From contig CACIZU010000003.1 of the NCBI GenBank assembly GCA_902591185.1, forward strand, positions 1-64,000: DNA of 64,000 nucleotides, given 5' to 3'. The notes under the pieces were generated by a model. That model was not told the origin of the DNA. It saw only the letters and a list, made by a program, of their open reading frames with translations, and made no database searches. Both the position numbers and the translations under genes were made by a program. This DNA comes from an uncultured Pelagibacteraceae bacterium (GTDB lineage: Bacteria > Pseudomonadota > Alphaproteobacteria > Pelagibacterales > Pelagibacteraceae). The stretch's first letter is position 1; each line of letters begins with the position of its first letter. Shown here piece after piece: positions 20,941 to 40,781 of the stretch.

Positions 20941-21954
20941 CTAAAATTTAATTTTCTCTAATTTTTTTGTTTTTAAAGATTTAATAGCAGTCTCAGCTAA
21001 GATTAATGATAATCTACCATCTTCAAAATTTGCTAATGGTTTAATATTTTTTTTACAGAGTTTTGCTAAATCATTTAACTGAATTTTGTAAGCGTCAGAA
21101 TATCTTTCAATAAAAAAATTTTTGAAAGTAGATTTATTATTAGTTGAATTTTTAGAATAAAAGGAAGTCTCCTGATCTCTTTGATTGTCAGAAATTATCA
21201 TACCTTTAGAACCAAAGAGTTCAATTCGTTGATCATATCCAAAGCTACAGTGTCTGGAATTAATAATTATACACTGAACTCCTTTTTTTGTTTTCATTAC
21301 AACTGTAGCTAATTCTAAATCTTTAACTTTTTTGAATTTTTTATCTGTAAAATATTCGCCTGTCGCAAATAATGAATTAAATTTATCTGATCCGGCATAG
21401 TATCTGGCTAAATCAAAATCGTGTATCATCATGTCTTTAAATATACCACCAGATGTCTTTAAATAGTTTAATGTAGGTGGAGCAGGGTCACGACTTGTTA
21501 TTATTATCTTTTCTAATTTACCTATCTTACCTTTAAGTAAATTTTTTTTTAAAGAGTTATGAGCAGGGTCATATCTTCTATTAAAGCCTATTTGAATTTT
21601 AGGATTATGTTTAGCAATATTTTTTTTACATTGATTAATCTTTTTTAAATTTAAGTCTAAAGGTTTTTCACAGAAAACGATTTTTTTATTTTTAACTGCC
21701 TCTTTTATAAATTTTAAATGAGTTTTGGTACTTGTAGATATAAAAATACTTTTAATATTTTTATCTTTGAAAGCTACAGATGGGTTTTTAATAGGTATAC
21801 ATTGATATTTTTTGGATAATTTTTTTGTTAATTTTTTATCTATATCAAAAACATACTTTAAATTAAATTCAGGATGATTGATTAAATTTTCAGCGTGCAT
21901 TTGACCAATTCTTCCAAGGCCAAATAAGGCGATATTAATTATATTTTTACCCAT
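20941..21954 (-). CDS. Gfo/Idh/MocA oxidoreductase (inositol 2-dehydrogenase-like)
   Basis: ALFGLGRIGQMHAENL, EKPLDLNL, GFNRRYDP, FKDMMIHDFDLARY. Confidence 0.9.
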   Translation of the reverse strand: MGKNIINIALFGLGRIGQMHAENLINHPEFNLKYVFDIDKKLTKKLSKKYQCIPIKNPSVAFKDKNIKSIFISTSTKTHLKFIKEAVKNKKIVFCEKPLDLNLKKINQCKKNIAKHNPKIQIGFNRRYDPAHNSLKKNLLKGKIGKLEKIIITSRDPAPPTLNYLKTSGGIFKDMMIHDFDLARYYAGSDKFNSLFATGEYFTDKKFKKVKDLELATVVMKTKKGVQCIIINSRHCSFGYDQRIELFGSKGMIISDNQRDQETSFYSKNSTNNKSTFKNFFIERYSDAYKIQLNDLAKLCKKNIKPLANFEDGRLSLILAETAIKSLKTKKLEKIKF

Positions 21955-23072
21955 CTTTTTCTTTTAGAAGAAACTTTGCAGGCATTTATAAACTTTGCAG
22001 TTTCTAGTCCTTCATCTTCATTTGGGTAAAAAAATCTTTTTTTAGATTTAGTTTTTAATGAGTCAGAAAATTCTTTGTAGATATTTGCAAAAGCATCTAA
22101 ATAACCTTCTGGATGACCAAATTTAATTCTTGAAAATTTTTTAGATAATTCTGCATTATGAAATCCTCTTTCAAGCAATTTAACGGCTCCTTTTCCAGGA
22201 TTTAATTTTAAATAACCAGGATTATTTTGCACCCATTCCAAACTACCTTTAGAACCAAATACTCTTATTTTTAAGCCATAAACACCACCCCTTGCCATTA
22301 CATTTGTCCAAAACATTCCTTTTGCTCCATTTGTAAAATTGATCATTACTTGGGCGTTATCATCCATCTTAATTTTATTTGAAATTTGTTTTATATCAGC
22401 AAATACTTGTTTTCCTTTTAATCCAGAAATATATGAAGCCAAATGGTATGCGTGTGTTCCAATTTCATTAAGTACAGCTGAAACTCCAACTATTTTATTA
22501 TCTATTTTCCATGTTAATTTCTTCTTTGCATTTTTAGAAGTTATTTTTGTTCCTCCAGACCAATCTTGAATATATTCAACGTTAATATATTGAACTTTCC
22601 CAATTTTTCCTTTTTCAATTAACACCTTAGCTTCTCTTACCATAGGATAAGAGGAATAATTATGAGTTAGAGCATATTTAATTTTTTTATTAGATTTAAT
22701 TTTTTTATATAGTTTTTTAGCTTGATCTAAATTTCCCGCAAAAGGCTTATCAGAGATAATATGAATATTTTTATCTATAAATTTTTCAGCTATAACTTGA
22801 TGACTTGCAGGAGGCGTCATTATTGAAACTACCTTAATACAGTCATTTCTTTTGGATTCTTTATCTGCCATTTCTTTATAGTTTGAGTAACACCTGTCTT
22901 TTGAAATCCCTATACTTTTCCCAAAACTTATTGATAATTTTGAATTTCTTGAAAAAACACCAGCAACTATTTCATAACGATCATCAAATCTTGCTGAAAT
23001 TCTATGTACATGGCCAATCCAAGAATTAGGACCACCACCAACTATTCCTAAAGATAATTTTTTTGTTTTCAT
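21939..23072 (-). CDS. Gfo/Idh/MocA oxidoreductase
   Basis: LGIVGGGPNSWIGHVHR, SDKPFAGNLDQA, LNEIGTHAYHLASYISG. Start set to MKTKKLSLG; the longer ORF overlaps iolE. Confidence 0.9.
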   Translation of the reverse strand: MKTKKLSLGIVGGGPNSWIGHVHRISARFDDRYEIVAGVFSRNSKLSISFGKSIGISKDRCYSNYKEMADKESKRNDCIKVVSIMTPPASHQVIAEKFIDKNIHIISDKPFAGNLDQAKKLYKKIKSNKKIKYALTHNYSSYPMVREAKVLIEKGKIGKVQYINVEYIQDWSGGTKITSKNAKKKLTWKIDNKIVGVSAVLNEIGTHAYHLASYISGLKGKQVFADIKQISNKIKMDDNAQVMINFTNGAKGMFWTNVMARGGVYGLKIRVFGSKGSLEWVQNNPGYLKLNPGKGAVKLLERGFHNAELSKKFSRIKFGHPEGYLDAFANIYKEFSDSLKTKSKKRFFYPNEDEGLETAKFINACKVSSKRKRWVKI

Positions 23073-23112
23073 TGTGTTTGCAGTTTCATATATCATAACA
23101 AAAAGAAATATT

Positions 23113-24012
23113 ATGTCAGTAAAATTAGGAATAGCACCAATAGCATGGAGCAATGATGACATGCCTGAACTAGGAGGAGATACTCCTTTAGAACAATGTC
23201 TTTCAGAAGCAAATGAAGCTGGATTTTCAGGAATAGAGTCTGGTGGTAAATTTCCAAAAAAATCTGAAGAACTTATCCCTTTATTAGAAAAATATAACTT
23301 AAAATTATGTTCAGGATGGTATGGAGCAAATTTAAGAAAAAATTCTGTGAAAGATGAAATTGTTGCAATTCAAGAACAGCTAAAGCTTTTTCAAGATTGT
23401 AAAGCACCTTGCATAGTTTTTGCAGAAGTTTCCGATTCTATTGCGGGCGATCCAAATAGACCTTTATCAACTAGACCTCAAATGGATAATGAAGAATGGA
23501 GTAATTTTTGTAAAAAAATTTCAGAAATTGGAAAATATCTAGAAGATCAAGATATGCCATTAGCTTATCATCATCATATGGGTACAGTAATTGAATCACA
23601 AAAAGACACAGAAAGACTTTTAGAAAGCACTAATGATCAAGTTAAATTAATTTTAGACACTGGACATATGCTTTTTGCTGGAGGAAATTCTATTGAAGTA
23701 GCTGAAAATTTTAAAGAAAGAATTGTCCACATTCATTGCAAAGACATGAGAAAAAATATTTTAAATAAATCACTAGAAAAAGATTTAAGTTTTAGACAAG
23801 CTTTTTTAGAAGGTGCTTTTACAGTTCCTGGAGATGGATGTATTGATTATAAACCTTTATTAAATTTTTTAAAAACAAATAATTATAATGGTTGGTTAGT
23901 AGTTGAAGCAGAGCAGGACCCATCTAAAGCAAACCCTTTAGAGTATGCCAAAATCGGATTTAATTATTTATCTAAAGTTTGTAAAGAAGTAGATTTAGAT
24001 ATTATTTTATAA
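23113..24012 (+). CDS. iolE: Myo-inosose-2 dehydratase (IolE-like)
   Basis: LGIAPIAWSNDDMPELGGDTPLEQCLSEANEAGFSGIE and YHHHMGTVIE. Start set to MSVKLG. Confidence 0.9.
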   Translation: MSVKLGIAPIAWSNDDMPELGGDTPLEQCLSEANEAGFSGIESGGKFPKKSEELIPLLEKYNLKLCSGWYGANLRKNSVKDEIVAIQEQLKLFQDCKAPCIVFAEVSDSIAGDPNRPLSTRPQMDNEEWSNFCKKISEIGKYLEDQDMPLAYHHHMGTVIESQKDTERLLESTNDQVKLILDTGHMLFAGGNSIEVAENFKERIVHIHCKDMRKNILNKSLEKDLSFRQAFLEGAFTVPGDGCIDYKPLLNFLKTNNYNGWLVVEAEQDPSKANPLEYAKIGFNYLSKVCKEVDLDIIL

Positions 24013-24963
24013 TTTTACAATTTTTGACGTTTCCAACTTATTATCAAAAAAATCAATAATATTTTGTACAGTTTCTTTACCCATTCTAGTCATACATTCT
24101 TCTGTGAAAGAAGCTGTATGTGGACTTAAAAAAACTTTATCATTTTTTAATAAAGGATTATTTTGTTCAGGTGGCTCAGTTTTAAAAACATCTAAACCAG
24201 CACCAAAAATTAAATTTTCTTTTAAAGCTCTATCTAAATCAATTTCATTAACAATTCCGCCTCGGGCAGCATTAATTACGATGCAATTTTTTTTCATAGT
24301 TTGGAGCAAATCATAGTTAATTATATTTTTAGTTTTATCATTTAAAGGGATGTGAAGAGATATTGCATCCATGTCTTTGCAAGTTTCTTCCATGCTATCT
24401 ACTTTGATACCACCTAGTTTTTCTATTATATCTTGAGAAACAAAGGGATCATAAACAAAAACTTTCATTTCAAATCCTAGGCATCTTTTTATTAAAGCTT
24501 TACCTATTCTCCCAAATCCTGCAATTAGGATATTTTTATCCCATAATTCAACAGTTTTAGGTAATTTATTTCTATCATTAAATTTCCCTTCTTTAACAGT
24601 GTCATCATACATATTTTTTCTTTTGGATATATTAAGCAACAAGAACATTACATGTTCAGCTACAGCAATTGCATTAGCTGTTGCAGTAATAGCAAGAGTT
24701 AAATTCTTCTTTTTAGAAACTTCTAAATCGATATTGTCATATCCAACACCATGTCTTGAAATAATCTTTAAATTGTTTGCAGACTCAATTACATTACCAG
24801 GTAATTTTGCAGTTCTAATAGATATACCATCACAATTTTTTATTTTTGATTTTAAAAATTCAGTGTCAATATTTTCAACAACTTCAAATTCATAATCTGG
24901 ATTTTTTTTTAATAACTCAATACCAGCTTCATGAATAGGTTGTATAATTAATATTTTTTTCAT
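24007..24963 (-). CDS. D-isomer-specific 2-hydroxyacid dehydrogenase
   Basis: ISRHGVGYDNIDL, ILIAGFGRIGKAL, INAARGGIVNE, LSPHTASFT. Confidence 0.92.
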   Translation of the reverse strand: MKKILIIQPIHEAGIELLKKNPDYEFEVVENIDTEFLKSKIKNCDGISIRTAKLPGNVIESANNLKIISRHGVGYDNIDLEVSKKKNLTLAITATANAIAVAEHVMFLLLNISKRKNMYDDTVKEGKFNDRNKLPKTVELWDKNILIAGFGRIGKALIKRCLGFEMKVFVYDPFVSQDIIEKLGGIKVDSMEETCKDMDAISLHIPLNDKTKNIINYDLLQTMKKNCIVINAARGGIVNEIDLDRALKENLIFGAGLDVFKTEPPEQNNPLLKNDKVFLSPHTASFTEECMTRMGKETVQNIIDFFDNKLETSKIVKL

Positions 24964-24974: not shown

Positions 24975-25970
24975 TTATTTTGTTAACAAATTTGATAGAT
25001 CTCTATGGTTGTGTTTAAAGGTTGGTAAGGGATATTTAAAAGCATATTTTCTTGGTATACATTTATTTTTAGCTTTTTCCCAAAGAGCTACCCATTGTTT
25101 GTAATTATGAATTTTAATATTTTTTTTGTTTTTACTTCTGACATAAAAATTAGGCAAGGGTTTACGTCCCGAAGGTGTTCCAGCTCTGTTATATCTTATA
25201 TCAGCACTAATTCTAAAATTATTAGATTTGTTTGGAAGTGAGCAATGTATTGAATATTTGTGTAAAAGTATAATGTCACCTACATTGGCTTGTAGATATG
25301 TTGGTTTAAATTTATCTAAAAGTTTACTATTTTTAATTTCTACCTGTCCTCTGTATCCAGATATGTGGTTTAGTAATCCCATTTTATTAATTTCTTTAAC
25401 CGTTATCATACATCCGTTGTTTTTAGTTGTTTTAGTGAATGGTATCCAAACAGTAACCATATCACAAAATTTTTGGCCGTGAGTAGATAATACAGCTGCA
25501 TCTTGATGCCAAGGTGTTCTTCCACTTAAACCATCATGCACTGATCCTTTGGGTAATTTTTTTTCTGGTTGTTTAATCCTAGTATTTTGTACTGGGCTAG
25601 ATAAAATTTCAGAACCTAAAATTTTTTCTACAACATCTAATATTTTTTTATTTGTAATTAGATTCCAAAGCGAATGTGAAGCAAAGTAATCACTATCTTT
25701 TTTAACGTGATCTCTAGGTAATCTCGTATTGAAATATTGATCTAGATCATAAATATTTAATTTTGATACATAAGTGTATTTTTTTCTAAAATCATAATTT
25801 AACGCTTTATTTCTGTAAGTTTTTGGAGCAAACTTTTGGATGAGGCAGTCCATAACGAATTCCATGTCCTTCATGATAGGTTTTAAATCTTTATTGAAAT
25901 TTAAAATGTTTTTTACTTTTACAAATCCATCTCTCTTTAAGATTTCTTTAATTTTTGAGTTGCTCTTCAT
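24975..25970 (-). CDS. Phytanoyl-CoA dioxygenase (PhyH) family oxygenase
   Basis: TPWHQDAAVLS (HxD), MVTVWIPFTKTTKNNGCMITV, HKYSIHCSLPNKSNNFRISADIRY. Confidence 0.85.
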   Translation of the reverse strand: MKSNSKIKEILKRDGFVKVKNILNFNKDLKPIMKDMEFVMDCLIQKFAPKTYRNKALNYDFRKKYTYVSKLNIYDLDQYFNTRLPRDHVKKDSDYFASHSLWNLITNKKILDVVEKILGSEILSSPVQNTRIKQPEKKLPKGSVHDGLSGRTPWHQDAAVLSTHGQKFCDMVTVWIPFTKTTKNNGCMITVKEINKMGLLNHISGYRGQVEIKNSKLLDKFKPTYLQANVGDIILLHKYSIHCSLPNKSNNFRISADIRYNRAGTPSGRKPLPNFYVRSKNKKNIKIHNYKQWVALWEKAKNKCIPRKYAFKYPLPTFKHNHRDLSNLLTK

Positions 25971-25971: not shown

Positions 25972-26838
25972 TTAGCTAGTCTTTTTTAGCAGATAATTTG
26001 AATCATGAAAAGAAGTAAGCATTCTTTTATTATTAGGCACAATAGTTGGAAAATAATTATTATTTTTAAATGACCAGATAACAGGTTTGTTTAATGCATA
26101 ACTTCCATAAATAAAAAATCTTTTTGGACAGTCAAATTCTTTAAATCTTTTAACTCCATGATAAGAATTTGGTGTAGACTTAAAAAAGATAACTGTTCCT
26201 TGTTTGGGAGTAAATTCTTTAACAATTTTTAGCTCACTACCTTTTGGAAATCTTCTAAAACTTTTTCTTATATTTTTCTTATATTTTTTTTTATATAAAG
26301 TAAGTGAACCACCATTTTTTTTAGGTATATCTGTAAGATAAATTAAAAAATTATACAATCTATTCACATCATCTCTATGAGGTCTTAAACGATAACCACC
26401 CTTAGAAACTGAAAAATCTATATCCAAATTAAGTATCGGATTTTTATAATTATCGCCTAATAATTTTGTTAGCTCTTTGGAATTAACTTTTCTTTTAAGT
26501 GTAAATTTCTTTGAATTAAATGATCTTGGATTATATAAATTTGTCCAAGTATTTTCTTTAAATCTTGATTTAAATATTTTTTCTATTTTTTTAAAAAAAA
26601 TTTTACTATTAAATTTCTTAAATAACTTTAATGAATATTCAGAATTTTTTAAATAAATTTCGAAATTTTTTGAACCTTTGTTTATTCTACTTCTCCCTCC
26701 CATTATTATATCATCAAATGATTTAGATGAACTTATTTCAGAGATTAAATTTTTACAGATATTTTTAGGAATAGCTTTTTCAGCAACTAAAACAGGAAAA
26801 TTATTTTTAATTTTTTTTAATTTTCCTATATTTATCAT
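25972..26838 (-). CDS. 2OG-Fe(II) oxygenase family protein
   Basis: RLRPHRDDVNRLYNFLIYLTDIPKKNGGSLTLY...TPKQGTVIFFKSTPNSYHGVKRF (HxD...H). Confidence 0.82.
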   Translation of the reverse strand: MINIGKLKKIKNNFPVLVAEKAIPKNICKNLISEISSSKSFDDIIMGGRSRINKGSKNFEIYLKNSEYSLKLFKKFNSKIFFKKIEKIFKSRFKENTWTNLYNPRSFNSKKFTLKRKVNSKELTKLLGDNYKNPILNLDIDFSVSKGGYRLRPHRDDVNRLYNFLIYLTDIPKKNGGSLTLYKKKYKKNIRKSFRRFPKGSELKIVKEFTPKQGTVIFFKSTPNSYHGVKRFKEFDCPKRFFIYGSYALNKPVIWSFKNNNYFPTIVPNNKRMLTSFHDSNYLLKKTS

Positions 26839-27783
26839 TCAACTGTACATCCCTTCTTTAACTTTAATCATTTTATACATCAGATCATTTAAAGGAGTTG
26901 GGATTTTATGATTTTTTCCAAGCCTAGACACTTCACCACTAATAAAATCAATTTCTGTTTTTCTTCTATATAGGACGTCAAACGCCATGGATGATTTATT
27001 GGTTTGCTTAGAGTCCACTATTTTATTGAACATAAACAGACATTCATCTTCAGAAACCTCTATTCCTTCAGCTAAAGCAACTTTTCTAGTTTCTAGAATT
27101 ATTTCTTTGCCTAAAGATCTAGAAATAGACTGATTATTATTATCAATATAAAGTTCCGTGTGATTTAGATCAAAAATTGCAGATAAAGGACCTATTGCAG
27201 TAAGTGCAAATAATTTCATCCATTTCCTTTTTTTAACATCTTCAGCAGCAATCATTTCTAAACCATGTGCTGTAAATGTGTCAGCAATTTCTTTTACCCT
27301 GTCACTTACTCCACCATCGTATTCTCCAATCCAGGAAGGTAGAGCAGCATGATTTTTTATATGACCTGGGCCTAATATATTTGATGCTTGTGTCGTAGTT
27401 CCACCTAATACTTTTTCTTTGCCAACAATTTTTTGTATAATTGCTTCATGACCAATACCGTTTTGAAAAGACATGAATACAGTTTTTTCTCCAATGATAT
27501 TTTTGATACTTTTGAGAGCGGGCTCTAAGGCAGTTGCTTTGCACATTACAATTATAGCATCAACAGGATCTACACTTGATGGATCTGTTGTTGCTTTAAC
27601 TTTAATAAATCTATCGCCACCATGACCATCCATTTTAAGACCATTTTTATTTATAGCTTCTACATGTTCTTTCCAAACATCTATTAGGATTACGTTTAGT
27701 CCTTTTTCAGCTAACAAACCTCCAAACAGACAGCCCATTGCACCAGCGCCTAAAACAGCAACTTTTAAATCTTTATTTATCAT
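26839..27783 (-). CDS. Ketopantoate reductase (PanE/ApbA) family protein
   Basis: VAVLGAGAMGCLFGGLLAEKG, SFQNGIGHEA, KWMKLFALTAIGPLSAIF. Start set to MINKDLK. Confidence 0.9.
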   Translation of the reverse strand: MINKDLKVAVLGAGAMGCLFGGLLAEKGLNVILIDVWKEHVEAINKNGLKMDGHGGDRFIKVKATTDPSSVDPVDAIIVMCKATALEPALKSIKNIIGEKTVFMSFQNGIGHEAIIQKIVGKEKVLGGTTTQASNILGPGHIKNHAALPSWIGEYDGGVSDRVKEIADTFTAHGLEMIAAEDVKKRKWMKLFALTAIGPLSAIFDLNHTELYIDNNNQSISRSLGKEIILETRKVALAEGIEVSEDECLFMFNKIVDSKQTNKSSMAFDVLYRRKTEIDFISGEVSRLGKNHKIPTPLNDLMYKMIKVKEGMYS

Positions 27784-27810
27784 TAAAGCCTTTTCCAAAA
27801 TTAATTTATG

Positions 27811-27836
27811 TATAGATATTATATATATTATCTATA
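27811..27836. promoter_or_regulatory. 26-bp near-perfect palindrome in a divergent promoter region (putative operator)
   Basis: TATAGATATTATATATATTATCTATA; only positions 9 and 18 break the symmetry. Confidence 0.5.
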
Positions 27837-27872
27837 GACATTATGCAAAATAAAATATAGCTTAATATAGTA

Positions 27873-28841
27873 ATGCAATTGGAAATAGAAAAAGCAAAAT
27901 TTACAGAATATCCATTAGAAAAAATTTCTGAAGCTTTACAATTAGGCTTATCACAAAATTATAAAGTAGTTGAAGTGTCAGTTGTTGAATGTCCAAACTT
28001 AAGAGAGTGGGGCTGTCCATCAGAAGGTATTAGTGGAAATCAAAAGATTATTGATGTTGGTGGAGAGCCTTATATGCACGATCCAAAATTTATTGGTGCT
28101 GAATTTGATTATGAAGAAATTTCTAAAATGATAGGTTCAGAAAAATCTTATGCTTTAGGGGCTGGCTCAGGTGCAATGTCATGTTTAGAGGGTCATTGTG
28201 GAGAATTAGTGATTAATGAAAATTTAATTACCTCTGAGTCAAAATCAATTATTGCTCGTGTAGGAATAAATAAAGAATGTATTGCTGAAAAATATACAGC
28301 AAGGAAACATGGTGGCTTAGGCAATGTTTATTATACTGATGGTGTTAAAGGAAAAGTTATTAAAATTAAGATAAAAGGAAGATCTGGTGAACAGGGTTCT
28401 TTATCACAAGCAATGAGAGTAGCCTTGGCTGATAATTTGCAAATCGATGGAAAAAAACACATTGCTCTCGCTGGTGTTTTTAGAATTTTAAATGGAAAAA
28501 TTAGATCTCATGTTCAACCTGATTACGCTGATATTAAACATGAATACTATGATCCTAAACAAATGAAGTGCGTAAAAGATTTTTTGCAATTCTATGAACC
28601 TGTTGGACCAGAATTGCAAGCTTATAGTGTGCTTTGGACAGGTGACCCAACAGGAGGAGATCTTAATTTAAGAGAGTCGGGAGAACATACTCATTTTCAT
28701 TCCTATACAAAAGAAAATGTAGCTGGTCATTACCATTTTGATGTAACACCTGAAGATATTGAATATGAGGGATATTTTAATACTGCTGATGAAGTGCACA
28801 GAGTTAATAATATATACAAGGAATTAGCTAACAAAAAATAA
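27873..28841 (+). CDS. DUF1907 (C11orf54/PTD012-like) protein
   Basis: YALGAGSGAMSCLEGHCGELVIN, GGLGNVYYTDG, ESGEHTHFHSYTKENVAGHYHFD. Confidence 0.75.
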   Translation: MQLEIEKAKFTEYPLEKISEALQLGLSQNYKVVEVSVVECPNLREWGCPSEGISGNQKIIDVGGEPYMHDPKFIGAEFDYEEISKMIGSEKSYALGAGSGAMSCLEGHCGELVINENLITSESKSIIARVGINKECIAEKYTARKHGGLGNVYYTDGVKGKVIKIKIKGRSGEQGSLSQAMRVALADNLQIDGKKHIALAGVFRILNGKIRSHVQPDYADIKHEYYDPKQMKCVKDFLQFYEPVGPELQAYSVLWTGDPTGGDLNLRESGEHTHFHSYTKENVAGHYHFDVTPEDIEYEGYFNTADEVHRVNNIYKELANKK

Positions 28842-28876
28842 TATTAATTTAACTTTCTTTAAGATAACATTTTAGA

Positions 28877-29290
28877 ATGAAGAAACAGTTTAAATACCCT
28901 AAACACTTTGAGGAACAGAAAAAAATCCCAAAGATTACTCAAAAAAGAATTAAATTAGCTGAAGTTTCGCTAGGTGATTTCGAAGGAAGATTAGAGAACG
29001 AACTACTTAATTGGTTTTCTTTAACACCTCAGCATTGGATAATGCTGCACATGGTAATGCTTGCTTATTATAAAAATAAATCAATTACTAAAAACCAACT
29101 ATTAAAAGTCATTGAAAAATCTTACTTAACCTCAAACGTTTATATAGACACAGCTATTAAAAAAGGTTTTTTTAGAATTATTAGAAACGAAAAAGACAAG
29201 AGATCAATTTTTATTTTACCATCGGTAATTACAATAAAAACTTTTGAAGGGTTTATTGATAGAAGAGATATTCTTTATAAAGGTATTTAA
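28877..29290 (+). CDS. MarR-like winged-helix regulator
   Basis: Wing-like IIRNEKDKRSIFILPS after a helical region; only regulator recognised in the inositol-like part of the island. Confidence 0.65.
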   Translation: MKKQFKYPKHFEEQKKIPKITQKRIKLAEVSLGDFEGRLENELLNWFSLTPQHWIMLHMVMLAYYKNKSITKNQLLKVIEKSYLTSNVYIDTAIKKGFFRIIRNEKDKRSIFILPSVITIKTFEGFIDRRDILYKGI

Positions 29291-30105
29291 TGAAAAATAT
29301 TTATACTTGGGCTGCGCAACCAGCTAAACGAACTTTAACAGTAGCTGATCTAAAAGTAGCTAAAGGCAAAAAGAAATTTACTCAAGTTACAGCAAACTCA
29401 CATGAAGAAGCTTATGCTGCAGAGAAAGCTGGTTTTGATATGATCATCTGCCAAGCTAAAAATGTTTTAAAAGTAAGAGAAGGATCAAAGCATTTATTTT
29501 TAACAGCTTCTTTAATTCTTAATGAATATGTTACTAAAGAAGATATTATGAGAGGAGCATTCAAAGCATTAGAGGGTGGTGCTGACGCTGTAATGACACC
29601 TAGAAGCATGGATGTTGTCGAAATGTTAACTAAAGAAGATGTTCCTGTTATGGGTCATTTAGGTTTGGTACCTAGAAAATCTACTTCACTTGGTGGAATG
29701 AGAGCAATAGGAAAAACCTCAAATGAAGCATTTGAATTATTTCAAAAATTTAAAAGATTAGAAGATGCAGGTGCTTTTTCAGCAGAATGTGAAGTTATAC
29801 CAGAAAATGTAATGGGTGAAATTTCTAAAAGAACAAATATCGTAACAGTATCCTTAGGAGCAGGAAGAAATGCCGATGTAATGTATTTATTTATGGAAGA
29901 TATATGTGGAGATACAGAAAATTTACCAAGACATTCAAAAGCTTATGGTAATTTATTAAAACTTAGAAATGAAATTAAACTTGAGAGGATAAGAGCCCTT
30001 AAAGCTTTCAAAAAAGATTCTATGAGTGGAAAATTTCCAGGAAAAAAACAATCTTCTAATTTAGATAAAATACAATTTGAGGAATTTTTAAATCAATTAG
30101 ATTAA
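29290..30105 (+). CDS. PanB-like (ketopantoate hydroxymethyltransferase family) protein, divergent
   Basis: VPVMGHLGLVPRKSTSLGGMRAIGKTSNEA matches the PanB VPVxGHLGLTPQS..GGYKVQGR region; EDAGAFSAECEVIP matches PanB; metal-ligand motifs replaced. Confidence 0.8.
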   Translation: MKNIYTWAAQPAKRTLTVADLKVAKGKKKFTQVTANSHEEAYAAEKAGFDMIICQAKNVLKVREGSKHLFLTASLILNEYVTKEDIMRGAFKALEGGADAVMTPRSMDVVEMLTKEDVPVMGHLGLVPRKSTSLGGMRAIGKTSNEAFELFQKFKRLEDAGAFSAECEVIPENVMGEISKRTNIVTVSLGAGRNADVMYLFMEDICGDTENLPRHSKAYGNLLKLRNEIKLERIRALKAFKKDSMSGKFPGKKQSSNLDKIQFEEFLNQLD

Positions 30106-30896: not shown

Positions 30897-32339
30897 TTAT
30901 ATTTTTAGACCCAAGTGTGTATATTTTACGTTTAAATAATCTTTAATTGCTCCAGATCCACCTTCACGTCCATAACCAGTTTGTTTTATACCTCCAAATG
31001 GTGCTTCAGCGATTGCAACCACCCCTGTATTAACTGCAACACATCCTGACTCTAATTTTTCAGATCCTATATGAGCTTTGTCCATAGAATTTGTATACAA
31101 ATAACTACACAAACCTAAATCGTTATCATTTGCTCTCTCAATAACTTCGTCAAAAGTTTTGAAAGTCAAAATAGGTACAAGTGGACCAAAAGGTTCTTCT
31201 TTCATAATCGTAAAATTATCTTTTACATCATCAAAAACTGTTGGCTCGTAATAGTATCCTTTATTAAAACCAGAAGGTCTTTTTCCACCCATTAACACTT
31301 TTGCACCTTCACTTTTTGTTGTCTCTACTAATTTTTCTATTTCTTCTAATCTCTTTGCGGTAGTTAAGGGTCCTAATTCAACACCTTCGTCCATACCATT
31401 ACCTATTTTTAGTTTTTTTGCTTTATCCATAAAAGCACTAACAAACTCATCTTTTCTATTTTCTTGGATATAAAATCTATTAGGTGAAATACATACCTGG
31501 CCATTATTTCTAAATTTACCAGCTATTGCTATATCAGCAACTTTGTTCATATCTACATCTTCACATACAATAAAAGGAGAGTGTCCACTTAACTCCATAG
31601 TAACTCTTTGAACTTTGTCAGCTGCTTTTTTTAAAATTATCTTACCAACTCTTGTTGAGCCGGTAATTGAAACTTTTTTAATTATATCAGACTCCATTAG
31701 TTCGTTAGATATTTCAGCTGGATCACCTGATAGAAGATTTACCACTCCATCTGGTACACCAGCTTCTTTACATATATTAACCAATTCCATTACTGCACCA
31801 GGTGTTATTACATCTGGTTTACAAATAACTGAACATCCAGCAGCTAAAGCTGTTGAAATTTTTCTTGCAGCTAAAACTATTGGAAAGTTCCATGGAACTA
31901 AAGCGGCTACTACGCCAATCGGTTGATAGTAAACATGCACTCTAGTATCTGGAAATCTACTTTGAGCTGTTTGTCCATAAATTCTTTTAGTTTCTTCAGC
32001 ATTCCATTCAAAAATATCAGCACCACCACCAACTTCACCCACACCTTCAGCTAAAGGTTTTCCTACTTCAAGAGTTAACCATTTGGCAAGGACATCTTTT
32101 CTCTCTCTCATTAAGTCTGCAATCTTTCTAATTATATAAGATCTTTGCCAAGGGGGAGTGTTTTTCCAAATCTCCAAACCTTTTTCTGCAGATTTTAAAG
32201 CTCTCTGTACGTCAGCAGATGAGGCTTTTGATGCTTTTCCAATCACTTCTTCAGTAGCAGGATTAATTACATCATATGTTTCTTTTTTTTCAGCTTGTTG
32301 CCATTTACCGTCAATGAATTGTCCAAATTTACTATACAT
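30897..32339 (-). CDS. NAD(P)-dependent aldehyde dehydrogenase
   Basis: VAALVPWNFPIVLAARKI, VSITGSTRVGK, MELSGHSPFIVCEDVD, FRNNGQVCISPNR, EEPFGPLVPI. Confidence 0.95.
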   Translation of the reverse strand: MYSKFGQFIDGKWQQAEKKETYDVINPATEEVIGKASKASSADVQRALKSAEKGLEIWKNTPPWQRSYIIRKIADLMRERKDVLAKWLTLEVGKPLAEGVGEVGGGADIFEWNAEETKRIYGQTAQSRFPDTRVHVYYQPIGVVAALVPWNFPIVLAARKISTALAAGCSVICKPDVITPGAVMELVNICKEAGVPDGVVNLLSGDPAEISNELMESDIIKKVSITGSTRVGKIILKKAADKVQRVTMELSGHSPFIVCEDVDMNKVADIAIAGKFRNNGQVCISPNRFYIQENRKDEFVSAFMDKAKKLKIGNGMDEGVELGPLTTAKRLEEIEKLVETTKSEGAKVLMGGKRPSGFNKGYYYEPTVFDDVKDNFTIMKEEPFGPLVPILTFKTFDEVIERANDNDLGLCSYLYTNSMDKAHIGSEKLESGCVAVNTGVVAIAEAPFGGIKQTGYGREGGSGAIKDYLNVKYTHLGLKI

Positions 32340-32432: not shown

Positions 32433-34277
32433 ATGAAGAAAATTACACTTACATGCGCACACGCGATAGTTAAATATTTAATAGCGCAAAAGATATTAAT
32501 TAATGGCAAAAAAGAACCTTTGTTTCCAGGTGTATTTGGAATTTTTGGGCATGGAAATGTAGCTTGTTTAGGACAAGCTCTTGAAGAAAATCAAAAAGAA
32601 CTTCCAACTTATAGAGGTCATCATGAACAAAATATGGCTTTAACAGGCATCGGTTATGCTAGAGCAAAAAGAAGGCAGCAGATATTTGTAGCAACATCAT
32701 CAGTAGGTCCTGGCGCAACAAATATGGTTACTGCAGCAGCAGTAGCGATGAGCAACCGATTACCAATTTTATTTTTACCAGGAGACACTTATGCAAATAG
32801 AATGCCAGATCCAGTCTTACAACAAGTCGAACACTTTAATAATCCGGGAATTACTGTAAATGATGCATTTAAACCAGTCACTCGATATTTTGATAGAATT
32901 ACAAGGCCAGAACAGATCATCCAATCTTTTCCAACAGCAGTCCAAACAATGTTGGACCCGGCAGATTGCGGCCCAGCCTGTATAGCTTTAAGCCAAGATG
33001 TCCAAGGTCAAACATTTGATTATCCAGAAGAATTTTTTAAAGAAAAAATTCATGCAATTAGAAGACCTAGACCAGATGAATTTCAAATTAAAGAAGCGGC
33101 TCAAAAAATTAAGTCCTCAAAAAATCCAATAATTATTTCTGGTGGTGGAGTTTTTTATTCAGATGCTATGGAAGAATTAAGCAACTTTGCAATTAAACAC
33201 AACATACCAGTTACTCAAACAGTAATGGGATATTCTACAATGAAAAGAGATCATTCGCATTATGCAGGTCAAATAGGTGGGTTAGGAGGAAAAAATACAA
33301 ATTCACTTGCTAAACAAACAGATCTCGCAATTGCAGTTGGAACAAAACTAGCAGACTTTACAACAGGATCATGGGCAAATTTTGAAAATGAAAACTTTAA
33401 ACTTGTTTCAATAAATGTTTCTAGATTTGATGCAAATAAACATTTGGCTCAAGCAGTGGTAGGAGATGCAAAAGTTTCATTAGATGAGCTTTCATTAGCG
33501 CTAGGTGATTGGAAAGCAGAAGATGAATGGAATAAAAAATCTCAAATAGAATTAAAAGCTTGGAATGAACATGTAGATAAAGTGAGTGCACCTTCTAATC
33601 AGGAAATTCCAAGTTATGTTCAAGTGATAGGATCTGTTTATAGAAATTCTGATCCTTCAGATATTGCTGTAACAGCTGCAGGAGGATTAGTTGGAGAAGT
33701 GGCTCAAGTTTGGAGACCTAGAGAATTAAATACTCATGAAACAGAGTGGGGCTTTAGTTGTATGAGTTATGAAATATCTGGAGCTTTAGGAATCAAAATG
33801 GCAAATCCTGACAAAGAAGTTATTTCTTTTGTTGGCGATGGATCTTATCTTTTAAATAATACAGATATATATTCTTCTGTTATCACTAAGAATAAACTTA
33901 TTATAATAGTTTGTGATAATGGTGGTTTTGCAGTTATAAATAGACTTCAATTATTTAAAGGTGGAAAAGAATTTAACAATTTATTAAAGAGCTCAAAAAC
34001 TCCTGGACTAGTTGATATTGATTTTGCTAAACATGCAGCAAGCATGGGAGCTAAATCAGAAGAAGTAAGCTCACTTTCAGATCTTGAAGAAGCATTTAAG
34101 AGAGCAAAAAAATCAAACATAACTTATGTAATTTCAATAAAAACTCATGCTTATAAATGGATGGAAGGTTCAGCTTTTTGGGATAGTCCAACATTAGAGA
34201 TGCCTACAACCAAAGAGAATAAAGAAGCTTTAAAACTACATAAAGAAGGAAAGTCAAAACAAAGACAAGGTGTATAA
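32433..34277 (+). CDS. iolD: 3D-(3,5/4)-trihydroxycyclohexane-1,2-dione acylhydrolase (IolD-like, ThDP-dependent)
   Basis: FPGVFGIFGHGNVACLGQAL, YRGHHEQNMALTGIGYARA, SSVGPGATNMVTAAAVAMSNRLPILFLPGD, VSFVGDGSYLLNNTDI. Confidence 0.93.
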   Translation: MKKITLTCAHAIVKYLIAQKILINGKKEPLFPGVFGIFGHGNVACLGQALEENQKELPTYRGHHEQNMALTGIGYARAKRRQQIFVATSSVGPGATNMVTAAAVAMSNRLPILFLPGDTYANRMPDPVLQQVEHFNNPGITVNDAFKPVTRYFDRITRPEQIIQSFPTAVQTMLDPADCGPACIALSQDVQGQTFDYPEEFFKEKIHAIRRPRPDEFQIKEAAQKIKSSKNPIIISGGGVFYSDAMEELSNFAIKHNIPVTQTVMGYSTMKRDHSHYAGQIGGLGGKNTNSLAKQTDLAIAVGTKLADFTTGSWANFENENFKLVSINVSRFDANKHLAQAVVGDAKVSLDELSLALGDWKAEDEWNKKSQIELKAWNEHVDKVSAPSNQEIPSYVQVIGSVYRNSDPSDIAVTAAGGLVGEVAQVWRPRELNTHETEWGFSCMSYEISGALGIKMANPDKEVISFVGDGSYLLNNTDIYSSVITKNKLIIIVCDNGGFAVINRLQLFKGGKEFNNLLKSSKTPGLVDIDFAKHAASMGAKSEEVSSLSDLEEAFKRAKKSNITYVISIKTHAYKWMEGSAFWDSPTLEMPTTKENKEALKLHKEGKSKQRQGV

Positions 34278-34285: not shown

Positions 34286-35443
34286 ATGAATAAAGTATTT
34301 AAAGTTGGTCTAATAGGCTGCGGACATATTTCTGAAACATACTTTAGAGCTGAAAAATATTTTAATAACATCAAAATTATTAAATGCGCAGATATAAATC
34401 ATAAAAACGCATTAAAATGTGCAAAAACTTATAAAATTAAAGCATTAACTGTAAAAGAGCTATTAAAAGACAAAGAAATAGAAATTATTCTTAATCTAAC
34501 AATTCCTAAAGCACATTATCAGGTAGCAAAAAAAGCTTTAACTAATGGGAAGCATGTTTATTCAGAAAAGCCGTTAGCAATAAATTTTAAAGATGGAAAA
34601 GAACTTTTGAAATTAGCCAAAAAGGGAAAACTTTATATTGGTAATGCGCCAGATACATTTTTAGGTGGAGGCATTCAAAAATCAAAAGAATTAGTTGATA
34701 AAAAAATTATTGGTAAAATTAATTTAGGAAATGCTATTTTTGCTTTTCCAGGAATTCAATCTTATCATCCTAATCCAGAACCATGGTTTGCAAAAAATGA
34801 AGGAGGACCAGTAATTGATATGGGTCCTTATTATTTAACTGCTTTAGTAAATTTATTAGGACCAGCAAAAAAAGTAACAGGAAGCATTGTTCATGGTGCC
34901 AAAAGGAGAACTATAGGAACAGGACATAAAAAAAACAAAACATTTAAGGTAAAATGTCCTACTACTTATTTATCTACTATTACTTTTAAAAATGGAACAA
35001 TTATTAGATTAACTCTTTCGTTTGATGTTATCGCACATCAAAGAAATCATATTGAGCTTTACGGAGATAAAGGTTCAATGATTGTACCTGATCCAAATAT
35101 GTTTGGTGGATCAGTTTATATTTGTAAAAAATTAGGCGACACATGGAAAGAGTATAAGGTTAATAAAATGCCTCTTGGAAAAATTAATATTAAATCTCAA
35201 AGCTCAAGAGCTAACGAGTCACCAACAAATGCAAATTATAGAGGGGTTGGATTAGCAGAAATGGCTAACTCAATAGAAAATAAAAAAATTAATAAATGCA
35301 ATGGTGAACTTTCATTACATGTTTTAGATATCATCAAATCTACAATGAAAGCTTGTGTATCAGGCAAATCTCAATCAATCAAAACAACTTGCGCAAAACC
35401 TCTACCTTTTTCTTTAAAACAAATAAGAAAAATACTAAAATAA
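34286..35443 (+). CDS. Gfo/Idh/MocA oxidoreductase
   Basis: VGLIGCGHISETYFRA, YSEKPLAINF, GGPVIDMGPYYLTALVNLLGPAKKV. Confidence 0.92.
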   Translation: MNKVFKVGLIGCGHISETYFRAEKYFNNIKIIKCADINHKNALKCAKTYKIKALTVKELLKDKEIEIILNLTIPKAHYQVAKKALTNGKHVYSEKPLAINFKDGKELLKLAKKGKLYIGNAPDTFLGGGIQKSKELVDKKIIGKINLGNAIFAFPGIQSYHPNPEPWFAKNEGGPVIDMGPYYLTALVNLLGPAKKVTGSIVHGAKRRTIGTGHKKNKTFKVKCPTTYLSTITFKNGTIIRLTLSFDVIAHQRNHIELYGDKGSMIVPDPNMFGGSVYICKKLGDTWKEYKVNKMPLGKINIKSQSSRANESPTNANYRGVGLAEMANSIENKKINKCNGELSLHVLDIIKSTMKACVSGKSQSIKTTCAKPLPFSLKQIRKILK

Positions 35444-35461: not shown

Positions 35462-36484
35462 ATGTCAAAATTAATAGTTATATCTGATCCTTTTCCTAGA
35501 ACACTCGAACTCATTTTTACAAAAAAAAAACTTAAGGAACTTAAATCTAAGTATAAAGTTTTAACTGTTTCAAAAAAAAATCCAAAAAAATTTTATGAAA
35601 AAAATATACATAAAGCTACATTTATAATGGGTCAGCCAAGTTTAGATAAAAAACTTCTATCTAAAGCAAAAAAACTAAAAGCTATTATTAATGTTGAAAG
35701 TAACTTTATGAATAATATGGACTATGATTATTGTTTTAAAAAAGGCATTCATGTAATAGCAACATCTCCTGTATTTTCAAAACCAGTTGCGGAAATTGCT
35801 TTAGGAATGACTTTATCTTTATTACGAAATATCCATACTGCTCATTCAGATTTTATCAAAGGAAAAGAAAGCTATGGATTAGAGAGCAATCTTAAAGCTT
35901 CATTATTATCAGAAAAAAAAATAGGGCTATTAGGTTTTGGAGATTTAGCTAAATCCTTATATCCACTGTTGTTACCATTTACTAAGGACATAAATGTATA
36001 TGATCCCTGGATACCTCAAAAAAAAATTAAAAAGTTAGGATTTAACTCAATGAGTTTAAACCAAATGTTTAAAAATTGTGAAATTATCTATGTATTGGCT
36101 GCTGTAACTACAAAAAATAAAAATCTGATAGATAAAAAATTATTAAATAAAATGAAATCCAATTCATTATTTATCTTAATGAGCAGAGCTGCAATTGTAA
36201 ATTTTAAGGATTTAATCAAACGAGTAAAAAAAGGTGATATATTTGTTGCAACAGATGTATTTCCAGAGGAACCTGTGACAAAAAATAATCCAATTAGAAA
36301 AGTTAAAAATATTCTATTTTCAGCACACAGAGCAGGAGCCTTGGAATCAGCCTTCTTTAATATGGGAAATATCGTCTTAAAAGATATGAATTTAATTTCT
36401 AAAAATTTACAACCAAAATTTTGTAAAAGAGCTGAACATAAAACGGTAGGTTTGTTGGCATCAAAACCTGTTGCAATTAATTAA
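35462..36484 (+). CDS. 2-hydroxyacid dehydrogenase (NAD-binding)
   Basis: KIGLLGFGDLAKSLYPLL, LMSRAAIVNFKDL, FSAHRAGALESA. Confidence 0.85.
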   Translation: MSKLIVISDPFPRTLELIFTKKKLKELKSKYKVLTVSKKNPKKFYEKNIHKATFIMGQPSLDKKLLSKAKKLKAIINVESNFMNNMDYDYCFKKGIHVIATSPVFSKPVAEIALGMTLSLLRNIHTAHSDFIKGKESYGLESNLKASLLSEKKIGLLGFGDLAKSLYPLLLPFTKDINVYDPWIPQKKIKKLGFNSMSLNQMFKNCEIIYVLAAVTTKNKNLIDKKLLNKMKSNSLFILMSRAAIVNFKDLIKRVKKGDIFVATDVFPEEPVTKNNPIRKVKNILFSAHRAGALESAFFNMGNIVLKDMNLISKNLQPKFCKRAEHKTVGLLASKPVAIN

Positions 36485-36506
36485 TTTTTTTATATTTTCA
36501 TTATTT

Positions 36507-37256
36507 ATGTCCACAACAAAAAATCTACTTCTAGAAGCAAAAGGAGTAACAAAATATTTTGGTACCATCACTGCTTTGGAAAATGTCAATTTAAAAATAC
36601 ATGGCGGAGAATGCTTGGGAGTGGTGGGAGATAATGGTGCAGGAAAATCTACTCTGATGAAAGTTCTGTCGGGACTTTATAAACCCAGCGCAGGATCTTT
36701 ATTTTTTGAAGGAAATGAAAAAGTTTTAGAAAGTCCAAGAGACTCTCAAATTTTAGGCTTAGAGATGGTTTACCAAGATCTTGCTTTAGCAGGAAATCTT
36801 CCAATTGGAGAAAATATATTTTTAGGAAGGGAACCAACTAAAAATTTAGGATTAATGAAATTATTAGATTTTAAAAAGATTAAAGAATTAACTGATGCTC
36901 ATTTAGGAAAATTAAAAATTAATGTAAAAAGCGCAGATCAAAAAGTTGAAGAACTTTCAGGAGGTCAAAGGCAAGCTGTAGCAATTGCAAGGTCAACTGC
37001 TTTTGATGCCAAAGTGGTTATTATGGATGAACCAACAGCGGCTCTTGCCATAAAAGAAGTTGGAAAAGTTCTTGATCTTATAAATAGTTTAAAAAAAACA
37101 GGTGTAGGTGTAATTGTAATCAGTCATAGAATGGATGATATATTCACTGTATGCGATCGAGTGATGGCTTTATTTCAAGGAACAAATTTTGCTGAAGCTG
37201 AACTTTCAAAAACTTCAAGAGATGAAGTTATTGGTTGGATTATGGGTAAGAAATAA
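36507..37256 (+). CDS. Ribose-type sugar ABC transporter ATP-binding protein (single domain)
   Basis: GDNGAGKSTLMKVLSGL, EELSGGQRQAVAIARS, VIMDEPTAAL. Start set to MSTTKN. Confidence 0.95.
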   Translation: MSTTKNLLLEAKGVTKYFGTITALENVNLKIHGGECLGVVGDNGAGKSTLMKVLSGLYKPSAGSLFFEGNEKVLESPRDSQILGLEMVYQDLALAGNLPIGENIFLGREPTKNLGLMKLLDFKKIKELTDAHLGKLKINVKSADQKVEELSGGQRQAVAIARSTAFDAKVVIMDEPTAALAIKEVGKVLDLINSLKKTGVGVIVISHRMDDIFTVCDRVMALFQGTNFAEAELSKTSRDEVIGWIMGKK

Positions 37257-38272
37257 TGATTGAAGAAAAAGATAAGAAACAAGAAAGTCTATATTTAAAA
37301 TTAATTCCATATTTTGATAAATATGGAATTTTGCTTTTGTTGTTAATAATGATATTGGTCATGCATATTTTACAGCCTGATGTATTTTTATCATGGCGAA
37401 ATGTTACTAACGTTTTCAAACAAATATCATGGCAATCAATGTTAGCTTTAGGCGTATTTATGGTGATTGTAACTGCAGGAATAGATCTTTCGGTAGGTTC
37501 AATCATGATGTTATCCCTAATGATTTTAGCAATAGTTGCAAAAGCAGGAGCCCCCTGGTTTATAGTTGTTATTACACCTTTAATTGCTGGGTTTTTATGT
37601 GGGTTAATTAATGGAGCTGGAATTACATTTTTAAGAATGCCTCATCCATTTATAATGACCTTAGGTACATTATATATTTTTAGAGGAACAGGAAATCTTA
37701 TATCGGGCGGAACACCAATTAGTGGTTTTACAGATGAAGTAAGATATTTAGGACATGGTAGAATTGATCTTACTTGGTTAGGATTAGAAAAATCACAATA
37801 TCTTCCTGTAAGTTTAGTTTTAATTGCAATTGTGTATTTTATTTTTTGGATTTTTATGAATCATTCCCGAACTGGAAAATGGATATATGCTATTGGAGGA
37901 AATCCTAATGCAGCTAGAGCATCAGGTATAAATGTTAATAAAATTTTAATAATCGTTTATTCTTTATGTGGATTTTTATCTGGAATTGGAGCACTGATTT
38001 TAGCTGGTAGAGCTGACTCTGGTTATCCGAATGCTGGACTTCAATCAGAACTTGATGCAATAGCGGCATGTATAATTGGAGGAGCTAGTTTTTTTGGTGG
38101 AAGAGGAACTGTGCTAGGAGTATTTGCTGGTGTGATGATAATGGGAATATTGAGAAATGGTCTTAATTTAATGGACGTTAGTTCATTTTGGCAACAAGTT
38201 TTAATTGGGTCAATTATTGTCTTAGCAGTTTACATAGATGTTTTAAGAAGAGATTTAAGTACAAGAAAATAA
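37256..38272 (+). CDS. Ribose-type sugar ABC transporter permease
   Basis: VIVTAGIDLSVGSIMMLS, GGNPNAARASGINV, IGGASFFGGRGTVLGVFAGV. Confidence 0.95.
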   Translation: MIEEKDKKQESLYLKLIPYFDKYGILLLLLIMILVMHILQPDVFLSWRNVTNVFKQISWQSMLALGVFMVIVTAGIDLSVGSIMMLSLMILAIVAKAGAPWFIVVITPLIAGFLCGLINGAGITFLRMPHPFIMTLGTLYIFRGTGNLISGGTPISGFTDEVRYLGHGRIDLTWLGLEKSQYLPVSLVLIAIVYFIFWIFMNHSRTGKWIYAIGGNPNAARASGINVNKILIIVYSLCGFLSGIGALILAGRADSGYPNAGLQSELDAIAACIIGGASFFGGRGTVLGVFAGVMIMGILRNGLNLMDVSSFWQQVLIGSIIVLAVYIDVLRRDLSTRK

Positions 38273-38407: not shown

Positions 38408-39331
38408 ATGAAAAACTTAACAAAAATAATTAGTGTATTTATTACAACTGTTTTTCTTTTAGCAAGTATTTCAACAAGTGCTAATGCTGGAAAAAGAATA
38501 TTATTCAGCATTAAAGGTCCTGGGTCAGGAAATCCTTTTTGGGCATCCGTAGAAAAAGGAGCTAAAGAAGAAGCTGCAAAATTAGGTGTAGATCTAGTTT
38601 TGGTTGCACCACCACAAGAAGGTGATGTTCAAGCGCAAATTAACCAAGTAGAAGATCAACTTGCAAAAGGTGTTGATGCAATAGCGCTTGCACCAGGTGA
38701 TCCAAATGCTTTTGCTCCAATCGTAGATGATGCTATCAAAAGCGGAGTTCCAGTTGTATTCGTTGATACTAAAGGAATTAATGAAGGTGTAACTTTTATT
38801 GGAACAAATAATAAAAATGGTGCTGCATTAGCTGCTAAGTTTATTTGCGATAAAACTCCAAAAGGTGCTGATGTTGCAGTTTTAACTGGAATTGAGTCTC
38901 AGTCTACAGCTCTACTTAGAAGAGATGGAGCAGTTCAAGGACTTAAAGATTGCGGTCTAAATCTAGTAGCTACACAAACTGCAGAATGGGATACAGCAAA
39001 AGGAAGATCTGTAACTGAATCAATCATTCTTAAAAATCCAAATATTAAAGCTATATTTGCATCAAATGACAATATGGGATTAGGTGCTATGCAAGCTCTT
39101 AAAGATGCTGACATGAATGATGTAGTAGTAGTTGGATTTGATGCTACTCCAGATGCTGCTAAAAGTATTTTAGCAGGGGGTATGACAGCTACAATCGCTC
39201 AGTTTTCTTACAACATGGGTGCTTATGGAGTTAAATATGCACTTGAGTTAGCTAATGGTGGTAGTATTGATATAAATATTGATACTGGTACTCAATTAGT
39301 AACTAAAGAAAACGCTAACGATTTTAAATAA
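38408..39331 (+). CDS. Ribose-type sugar ABC transporter substrate-binding protein
   Basis: Signal peptide; GSGNPFWASVEKGAKEEAAKLGVDLV, IALAPGDPNAFAPIVDDAIKSGVPVVFVDT. Confidence 0.94.
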   Translation: MKNLTKIISVFITTVFLLASISTSANAGKRILFSIKGPGSGNPFWASVEKGAKEEAAKLGVDLVLVAPPQEGDVQAQINQVEDQLAKGVDAIALAPGDPNAFAPIVDDAIKSGVPVVFVDTKGINEGVTFIGTNNKNGAALAAKFICDKTPKGADVAVLTGIESQSTALLRRDGAVQGLKDCGLNLVATQTAEWDTAKGRSVTESIILKNPNIKAIFASNDNMGLGAMQALKDADMNDVVVVGFDATPDAAKSILAGGMTATIAQFSYNMGAYGVKYALELANGGSIDINIDTGTQLVTKENANDFK

Positions 39332-39352
39332 TCTTTAGAAAAAATTATAATT

Positions 39353-39388: not shown

Positions 39389-39405
39389 TGTAATATAATA
39401 ATCTA

Positions 39406-39870
39406 ATGTTAATTAATATTAATCCAATTCTAAACCCTGAACTTTTATATAATTTAAGAGCTATGGGTCATGGAGATAAGTTAGTTTTAACAGACGCTAA
39501 CTTTCCCGCATATTCTCATTCTTTGAATAATAAAGTAATTAGATTAGATGGTGTTAATATTTATGAAGCTACGAAAGCTATTCTATCTGTCTTTCCATTA
39601 GACAGTTTTATAGACTCTGCTGCAAATAGAATGCAGGTAGATAATAAACCAGATGAATTAACAGAATGCCACAAAGATTTTATTAAAGCTGTCAAGGAAA
39701 GTTCTGGAGAAAATTGGAAAATTGGTTCAATTGAAAGACAAGAATTTTATAAAGAGGCGAAGAAATCTTACTTAATAGTATCTACTTCTGAAACAAGACC
39801 ATACGGATGTTTTATATTAACAAAAGGAGTAATAAAACCAGACGGTAGTGTTTGGGTTCTTGATAAATAA
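39406..39870 (+). CDS. RbsD/FucU family sugar pyranase/mutarotase
   Basis: LRAMGHGDKLVLTDANFPA; followed by a PfkB kinase. Confidence 0.9.
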   Translation: MLININPILNPELLYNLRAMGHGDKLVLTDANFPAYSHSLNNKVIRLDGVNIYEATKAILSVFPLDSFIDSAANRMQVDNKPDELTECHKDFIKAVKESSGENWKIGSIERQEFYKEAKKSYLIVSTSETRPYGCFILTKGVIKPDGSVWVLDK

Positions 39871-40781
39871 TGAACTCAATTTGTATTTTTGGGGTATTTG
39901 TAGCTGATCTTTGTTTTTTTGCTGAAAAAATTCCTGTTAAAGGTGAGACAGTTTTAGGGAAAAATTATTTAGTTGGACCAGGTGGAAAAGGATCAAATCA
40001 AGCAATTGCTGCAGCCAGATTAAATGGAAATGTTAATTTCATAACCAAAATTGGTAAAGATAATCATGCCGATATGGCATTTAGATTGTATGAAGATGCA
40101 GGAGTAAAAACTTCATCTATAATTCAAGACGAAAATCTTTCTACGGGCGTTGCAGGCATAATGATTGATGATAACGGTAGTAATGCAATAAATATTGTTT
40201 CAGGTGCAGCTGCGCATCTTAATAATCAAGATATAGATAAAAATTTGGAAATATTTAAAAAATCTAAAATTTTTCTTACTCAAATGGAAACTCCTGAAGA
40301 GGTAACTATATACTCTTTAAAAAAAGCTAAAGAAAATGACTGTATAACAGTTTTAAATCCAGCACCAGCAAGAAATATAGAGAAAGAGGATTTTAATTTA
40401 TTAGATTTTTTTACACCAAATGAAAATGAGGCTGAATTTTATTTAAATAAAAAAATTAAGTCTGAACAAGATGTTAAAAATGCTGCAAGTGAATTTTTAA
40501 AAAAAGGTGTAAAAAATATTATAATCACCTTAGGAGAAAAAGGAGTTTATTTTGCCAATAAAAATGAAGAATATTTTATTGATGCTTTAAAGTTGAAGGA
40601 TGAAGTTATAGATACAACAGGAGCAGGAGATGCTTTTAATGGAGCATTTGTCGTAGCGTTAGCTAATGAACTTAAATATAAAGAAGCATTACAATTTGCA
40701 AATAAAGTTGCTGGAATATCGGCAACAAGATTAGGAGCTGCAAGCTCAATGCCAACTTTAAATGAGGTCGATAAATATTAA
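39870..40781 (+). CDS. PfkB-family sugar kinase (ribokinase-like)
   Basis: VGPGGKGSNQAIAAARL, NPAPARNIEK, TLGEKGVYF, DTTGAGDAFNGAFVVAL. Confidence 0.92.
   Translation: MNSICIFGVFVADLCFFAEKIPVKGETVLGKNYLVGPGGKGSNQAIAAARLNGNVNFITKIGKDNHADMAFRLYEDAGVKTSSIIQDENLSTGVAGIMIDDNGSNAINIVSGAAAHLNNQDIDKNLEIFKKSKIFLTQMETPEEVTIYSLKKAKENDCITVLNPAPARNIEKEDFNLLDFFTPNENEAEFYLNKKIKSEQDVKNAASEFLKKGVKNIIITLGEKGVYFANKNEEYFIDALKLKDEVIDTTGAGDAFNGAFVVALANELKYKEALQFANKVAGISATRLGAASSMPTLNEVDKY

Follow-up and report, generated by a model that had tools for sequence, protein, structure and literature searches.

Gene content of the inositol island

The window analysed here (64,000 nucleotides, GC content 28.9%) comprises positions 1–64,000 of contig CACIZU010000003.1 in the GenBank assembly GCA_902591185.1 of an uncultured Pelagibacteraceae bacterium, and it carries an island of inositol catabolism genes, for whose proteins family calls were based on NCBIfam curated cut-offs and Pfam domains (Table 1). 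IolE and IolD, both recognised in a first-pass annotation made from the sequence alone, scored above their cut-offs, and the first gene, labelled there only as a Gfo/Idh/MocA dehydrogenase, could be sharpened to IolG. Two further members of that family were present and were designated GfoA and GfoB; the likely start of GfoA was judged from the sequence (the longest open reading frame extends to 23162), and the protein possibly has a role with another inositol isomer. The remaining genes of interest encode a 2-hydroxyacid dehydrogenase (HadhA), an aldehyde dehydrogenase (ALDH) and an HpcH/HpaI aldolase (HpcH). As the first-pass annotation had judged, the ALDH is not a methylmalonate-semialdehyde dehydrogenase (MMSDH; 258 bits, cut-off 448.5); with the succinate-semialdehyde dehydrogenase (SSADH) model TIGR01780 it reached 495.2 bits, under the cut-off of 646.35. 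HpcH scored best among NCBIfam models with HpaI (TIGR02311; 177.3 bits, cut-off 368.8) and gave 151.7 bits with GarL (TIGR03239; cut-off 406.75), while its structural relatives in the PDB ranked in the order S. wittichii hydroxyketoacid aldolase (203 bits), HpaI (147 bits) and the GarL-type 1dxe (131 bits). Its metal and active-site motifs were invariant or near-invariant across 80 orthologues. HpcH thus shares family and conserved motifs with all three aldolases; unlike HpaI and GarL it falls under both curated cut-offs and has IolD as its genomic partner.

Table 1. Genes of the island, its flank and three relatives' loci (window coordinates unless a locus is named; scores in bits against the curated cut-off)
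Feature	Position	Strand	Basis or remark
IolG, inositol 2-dehydrogenase	20941–21954	−	TIGR04380, 359.8 vs 355
GfoA, Gfo/Idh/MocA oxidoreductase	21939–23072	−	Pfam GFO_IDH_MocA
IolE, inosose dehydratase	23113–24012	+	TIGR04379, 409.9 vs 290
HadhA, D-2-hydroxyacid dehydrogenase (PGDH/glyoxylate reductase-like)	24007–24963	−	Pfam 2-Hacid_dh_C; PDB relatives
HpcH/HpaI class II aldolase, proposed C–C cleavage	30102–30893	−	PF03328; nearest PDB S. wittichii hydroxyketoacid aldolase
ALDH, SSADH-like, proposed 5-deoxyglucuronate dehydrogenase	30897–32339	−	Pfam Aldedh; nearest PDB 3jz4, an SSADH
IolD, trihydroxycyclohexane-1,2-dione acylhydrolase	32433–34277	+	TIGR04377, 801 vs 715
GfoB, Gfo/Idh/MocA oxidoreductase	34286–35443	+	Pfam; IolD neighbour
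PhyH-type oxygenase, optional	24975–25970	−	PF05721
2-Oxoglutarate-Fe(II) oxygenase, optional	25972–26838	−	PF13640
PanE/ApbA-like reductase, optional	26839–27798	−	TIGR00745, 248 vs 141; divergent from DUF1907
DUF1907 protein, optional	27873–28841	+	PF08925; PDB 1xcr, E = 1.3e-34; homologue of human C11orf54
137-aa protein	28877–29290	+	No family match; conserved between DUF1907 and PanB-like
PanB-like protein, optional	29290–30105	+	PF02548, residues 61–251 only; under both NCBIfam cut-offs
HadhB, second 2-hydroxyacid dehydrogenase, optional	35462–36484	+	Absent from minimal islands
Ribose-type ABC transporter, optional	36471–38272	+	Single-domain ATPase 36471–37256; permease 37256–38272
Ribose/allose-type substrate-binding protein	38408–39331	+	Nearest PDB D-ribose-binding proteins
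RbsD/FucU mutarotase	39406–39870	+	PF05025
Ribokinase (PfkB)	39870–40781	+	TIGR02152, 328 vs 300
ROK kinase	45590–46492	+	PF00480; usual CGxxGC zinc motif lacking
166-aa probable membrane protein, locus L135	354–854		
166-aa probable membrane protein, locus L146	14059–14559		
166-aa probable membrane protein, locus L029	14821–15324		

Absence of IolB and linkage of ALDH and HpcH to IolD

The canonical myo-inositol pathway of Bacillus subtilis comprises IolG, IolE, IolD, IolB, IolC, IolJ and IolA. No island protein matched IolB; the assembly is 73% complete and absence from it alone is weak evidence, so relatives' genomes were searched as well. IolB was found in none of 119 same-genus genomes (this genome and 118 others, each at least 85% complete), though 58 of them carry IolD, and in none of a sample of 41 relatives' genomes; the same search was positive in control genomes of Bacillus, Caulobacter and Corynebacterium. 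The suspected lack of IolB was thereby borne out. Regarding IolC and IolJ, neither of which had been clear in the first pass, no kinase above the IolC cut-off was found in the 41 genomes, and the DUF2090 aldolase was missing from 12 genomes that included complete ones (among them the single-contig, island-bearing G215 and G350), an IolJ-type class II aldolase not being searched for directly. The suggestion that the PfkB kinase might serve as IolC was discarded: it passed the ribokinase cut-off, gave 98 bits with IolC_N (cut-off 300) and belongs to an optional ribose cassette that is missing from minimal islands. The claim that canonical IolA is absent held for the island ALDH only, since an MMSDH is encoded elsewhere in the genome, outside island and window (G000:C1:2681-4114; 706.7 bits, cut-off 448.5).

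Gene neighbourhoods were compared in nine relatives and in 80 loci from named genomes. The constant block was HpcH–ALDH, divergent from IolD–GfoB: ALDH adjoined IolD in 78 of 80 loci and HpcH in 76 of 79 (the remaining three being locus ends), and GfoB adjoined IolD in 78 of 80 (two locus ends). HadhA lay next to IolE in all 21 IolE-bearing loci and GfoA in 14 of them (seven locus ends). Across the 119 genomes, IolD and an HpcH orthologue occurred together in 57, neither was found in 57, HpcH alone in four and IolD alone in one (Fisher p = 7e-28, a statistic that ignores phylogeny); in four of the five discordant genomes (G370, G413, G436 and G429) contigs end within the island. Among named genomes, the 80 best-matching relatives of IolD all belonged to Pelagibacter or Pelagibacteraceae, in agreement with the assignment of the window to Pelagibacter (SAR11), and a phage search with IolD returned distant matches only, all below 60% identity.

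A minimal island is seen in the complete genome G215 and consists of an inositol-type transporter, IolG, IolE, a small membrane protein, HadhA, HpcH, ALDH, IolD, GfoB and a ROK kinase. G404 (96% complete) likewise holds the minimal set only, and in both genomes the transporter is of the inositol/rhizopine type. Rhizopines are inositol derivatives, and the binding protein of the G215 transporter was nearest to the rhizopine-binding family (316 bits, under the cut-off of 420). In minimal islands a conserved 166-aa probable membrane protein, which has no family match, separates IolE from HadhA; it is not part of the island in the window. Orthologues of the ROK kinase stand directly after GfoB in G215 and G404 and, where islands are larger, at their right-hand end, a position that would suit canonical chemistry performed by non-homologous enzymes, with an isomerase replacing IolB, the ROK kinase IolC, and HpcH or another aldolase IolJ. 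This explanation was regarded as quite unlikely: no conserved candidate isomerase was seen, the ALDH would be left without a role because MMSDH is encoded elsewhere, and HpcH aldolases take 2-oxo acids, rather than ketose phosphates, as donors (PMC7610986).

Proposed route from 5-deoxyglucuronate

Inositol would be converted to 5-deoxy-D-glucuronate by IolG, IolE and IolD as in the textbook route, from which the proposed pathway departs at this point. 5-Deoxyglucuronate carries an aldehyde at C1, hydroxyls at C2–C4 and a carboxylate at C6. The ALDH is predicted to oxidise the C1 aldehyde to yield 5-deoxyglucarate; a dehydrogenase, most likely HadhA and possibly GfoB, would oxidise the C2 hydroxyl to give a 2-keto acid (a 3,4-dihydroxy-2-oxo acid), and this carbon is of D (R) configuration, as would be expected of the substrate of a D-2-hydroxyacid dehydrogenase. 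Class II HpcH aldolases form and split 3,4-dihydroxy-2-oxo acids between C3 and C4, and HpcH would accordingly release hydroxypyruvate and malonate semialdehyde. Malonate semialdehyde, which is a product of the textbook route too, would then be a substrate for the canonical IolA/MMSDH, whose gene lies outside the window, and yield acetyl-CoA. Isomerisation (IolB), phosphorylation (IolC) and phospho-aldol cleavage (IolJ or DUF2090) would all be bypassed. The wider reading, that Pelagibacter breaks inositol down by an oxidative, phosphate-free pathway in which 5-deoxyglucarate and a 2-keto acid are intermediates and malonate semialdehyde is formed along with hydroxypyruvate or pyruvate, with ALDH and HpcH replacing IolB, IolC and IolJ, was given a probability of roughly 0.65. 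The particular series ALDH, dehydrogenase, HpcH with hydroxypyruvate as product was put a little short of even odds. Its core, ALDH followed by HpcH, had been proposed in the first pass and is now backed by comparative genomics (no IolB, and ALDH and HpcH tracking IolD), while the reactions after IolD, their order and their products are predicted from sequence.

SSADH acts on aldehydes with a distant carboxylate. The human enzyme binds this carboxylate through Arg213 and Arg334 (PMC11681614), and two ALDH arginines match these positions in our reading of the alignment, which favours the proposed first step. The S. wittichii hydroxyketoacid aldolase takes hydroxypyruvate as donor and also accepts pyruvate (PMC10099721, PMC7610986), which leaves room for a variant in which an acid-sugar dehydratase turns 5-deoxyglucarate into 4-hydroxy-2-oxoadipate and HpcH forms pyruvate and malonate semialdehyde, near the reaction of HpaI. 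This variant was considered unlikely, even though HpaI is the best NCBIfam model for HpcH, an enolase-superfamily dehydratase adjoins the island in some relatives and the cell could get rid of pyruvate more easily than of hydroxypyruvate, whose possible sink PF13660 was missing from 12 genomes (see below). This enolase-type enzyme is not encoded in the island of the window and is not conserved (no match above cut-off in the island-bearing G404 and G361; IlvD/Edd types were not searched), and it was rejected as a core step.

Several observations weigh against the oxidative route with hydroxypyruvate as product. The glycerate kinase PF13660, a possible sink for hydroxypyruvate, was absent from 12 genomes (other kinases and transamination were not searched). 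In our alignments, the position of SSADH Ser498 is apparently Ala in the ALDH, and the aromatic Phe210 of the S. wittichii aldolase, which aids hydroxypyruvate use, seems aligned to His in HpcH. Co-occurrence of IolD and HpcH is partly automatic because the genes are physically linked, and locus L090 has no ALDH or HpcH within the 10 kb examined. The fifth discordant genome, G379, is the one real exception and keeps ALDH–HpcH–ROK without IolD; the pair may therefore have another substrate. At this locus (L141, 7182–10305) the ALDH, HpcH and ROK kinase reading frames are open and the flanks resemble the inositol island of G215; it may be a remnant, or the two genes may serve a second purpose here. 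If ALDH and HpcH served a separate substrate throughout, the inositol genes would only be their neighbours on the island, with a pathway either unfinished or finished in some other way. That explanation was held to be very improbable, as dozens of genomes have an intact IolD that clears its cut-off by a wide margin, IolD occurs with HpcH in 57 genomes, and ALDH–HpcH stays beside it whichever optional modules come or go.

Known systems, wider occurrence and optional modules

In common with the B. subtilis pathway, IolG, IolE and IolD were above their cut-offs and MMSDH was present in the genome; unlike there, IolB is absent, no IolC passed its cut-off, and ALDH, HpcH and HadhA are associated instead. 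SAR11 bacteria rank among the most abundant marine organisms, and inositol is a widespread metabolite; a pathway in which no ATP has to be invested in phosphorylating a sugar would suit their streamlined way of life and would be missed by present annotation. The IolC–DUF2090 fusion variant (Price et al.) still proceeds via IolB and IolC and uses a non-IolJ aldolase; DUF2090 occurs in 9 of the 11 inositol users for which fitness data exist (PMC9007349). A late step would likewise be taken by a non-IolJ aldolase in Pelagibacter, whose genomes, in contrast to that variant, lacked DUF2090 where examined. The island is predicted to encode a new variant of inositol catabolism. To enter a large survey of inositol clusters, a cluster needed three or more of the genes iolB, iolC, iolD and iolE (PMC9430895), so that islands with only D and E could not be counted there. 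The literature covered, which excluded most subscription journals, yielded no study of inositol breakdown in SAR11 and none of DUF1907 in connection with inositol.

In a class-wide sample, about 18 of 47 IolD-bearing alphaproteobacterial genomes had no meaningful IolB match; two of these are Pelagibacter, and examples are G152, G236, G284, G307 and G133 (loci L128, L129, L131, L127 and L133). Neither HpcH nor an IolC–DUF2090 homologue was found beside IolD in the stretches examined from IolB-less genomes outside SAR11, where inositol breakdown must therefore be completed otherwise. The late half of the pathway may vary more than textbooks state, other completing routes may exist, and the uncharacterised ALDH–HpcH pair now has a testable function.

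The other families listed in the first-pass annotation (PanB-like, PanE-like, DUF1907, the oxygenases and both 2-hydroxyacid dehydrogenases), like ALDH and HpcH, were confirmed with Pfam and NCBIfam; the 137-aa reading frame had been overlooked. As replacements for pathway steps, PanB-like, PanE-like, DUF1907 and the oxygenases were rejected, being missing from the minimal islands of G215, G404, G020 and G023. Together with the 137-aa protein they form one optional block, with DUF1907 in 36 of 40 full-length loci; the PanB-like protein is a partial match to ketopantoate hydroxymethyltransferase, and PanE-like adjoins DUF1907 in 60 of 63 loci (the other three are locus ends). The zinc-binding His motif of DUF1907, aligned with 1xcr, was kept in 66 orthologues. 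Human C11orf54 is a 3-dehydro-L-gulonate decarboxylase, i.e. a beta-keto acid decarboxylase (PMC12435205); the island protein shares its His motif and adjoins a dehydrogenase, and differs in being bacterial and part of an optional module. As a guess, PanE-like and DUF1907 may oxidise and decarboxylate a sugar acid, and the recurring divergent module from PanE-like to PanB-like (26839–30105) may process another sugar acid. A second optional block (HadhB, the ribose-type ABC transporter, RbsD and ribokinase) was present in 26–27 of 40 full-length loci. Beside the island, positions 40792–46492 hold a separate cassette with a PdxA-like dehydrogenase, a Tct-type tripartite transporter and a short-chain dehydrogenase/reductase; in some relatives the cassette at this place also holds an acid-sugar dehydratase.

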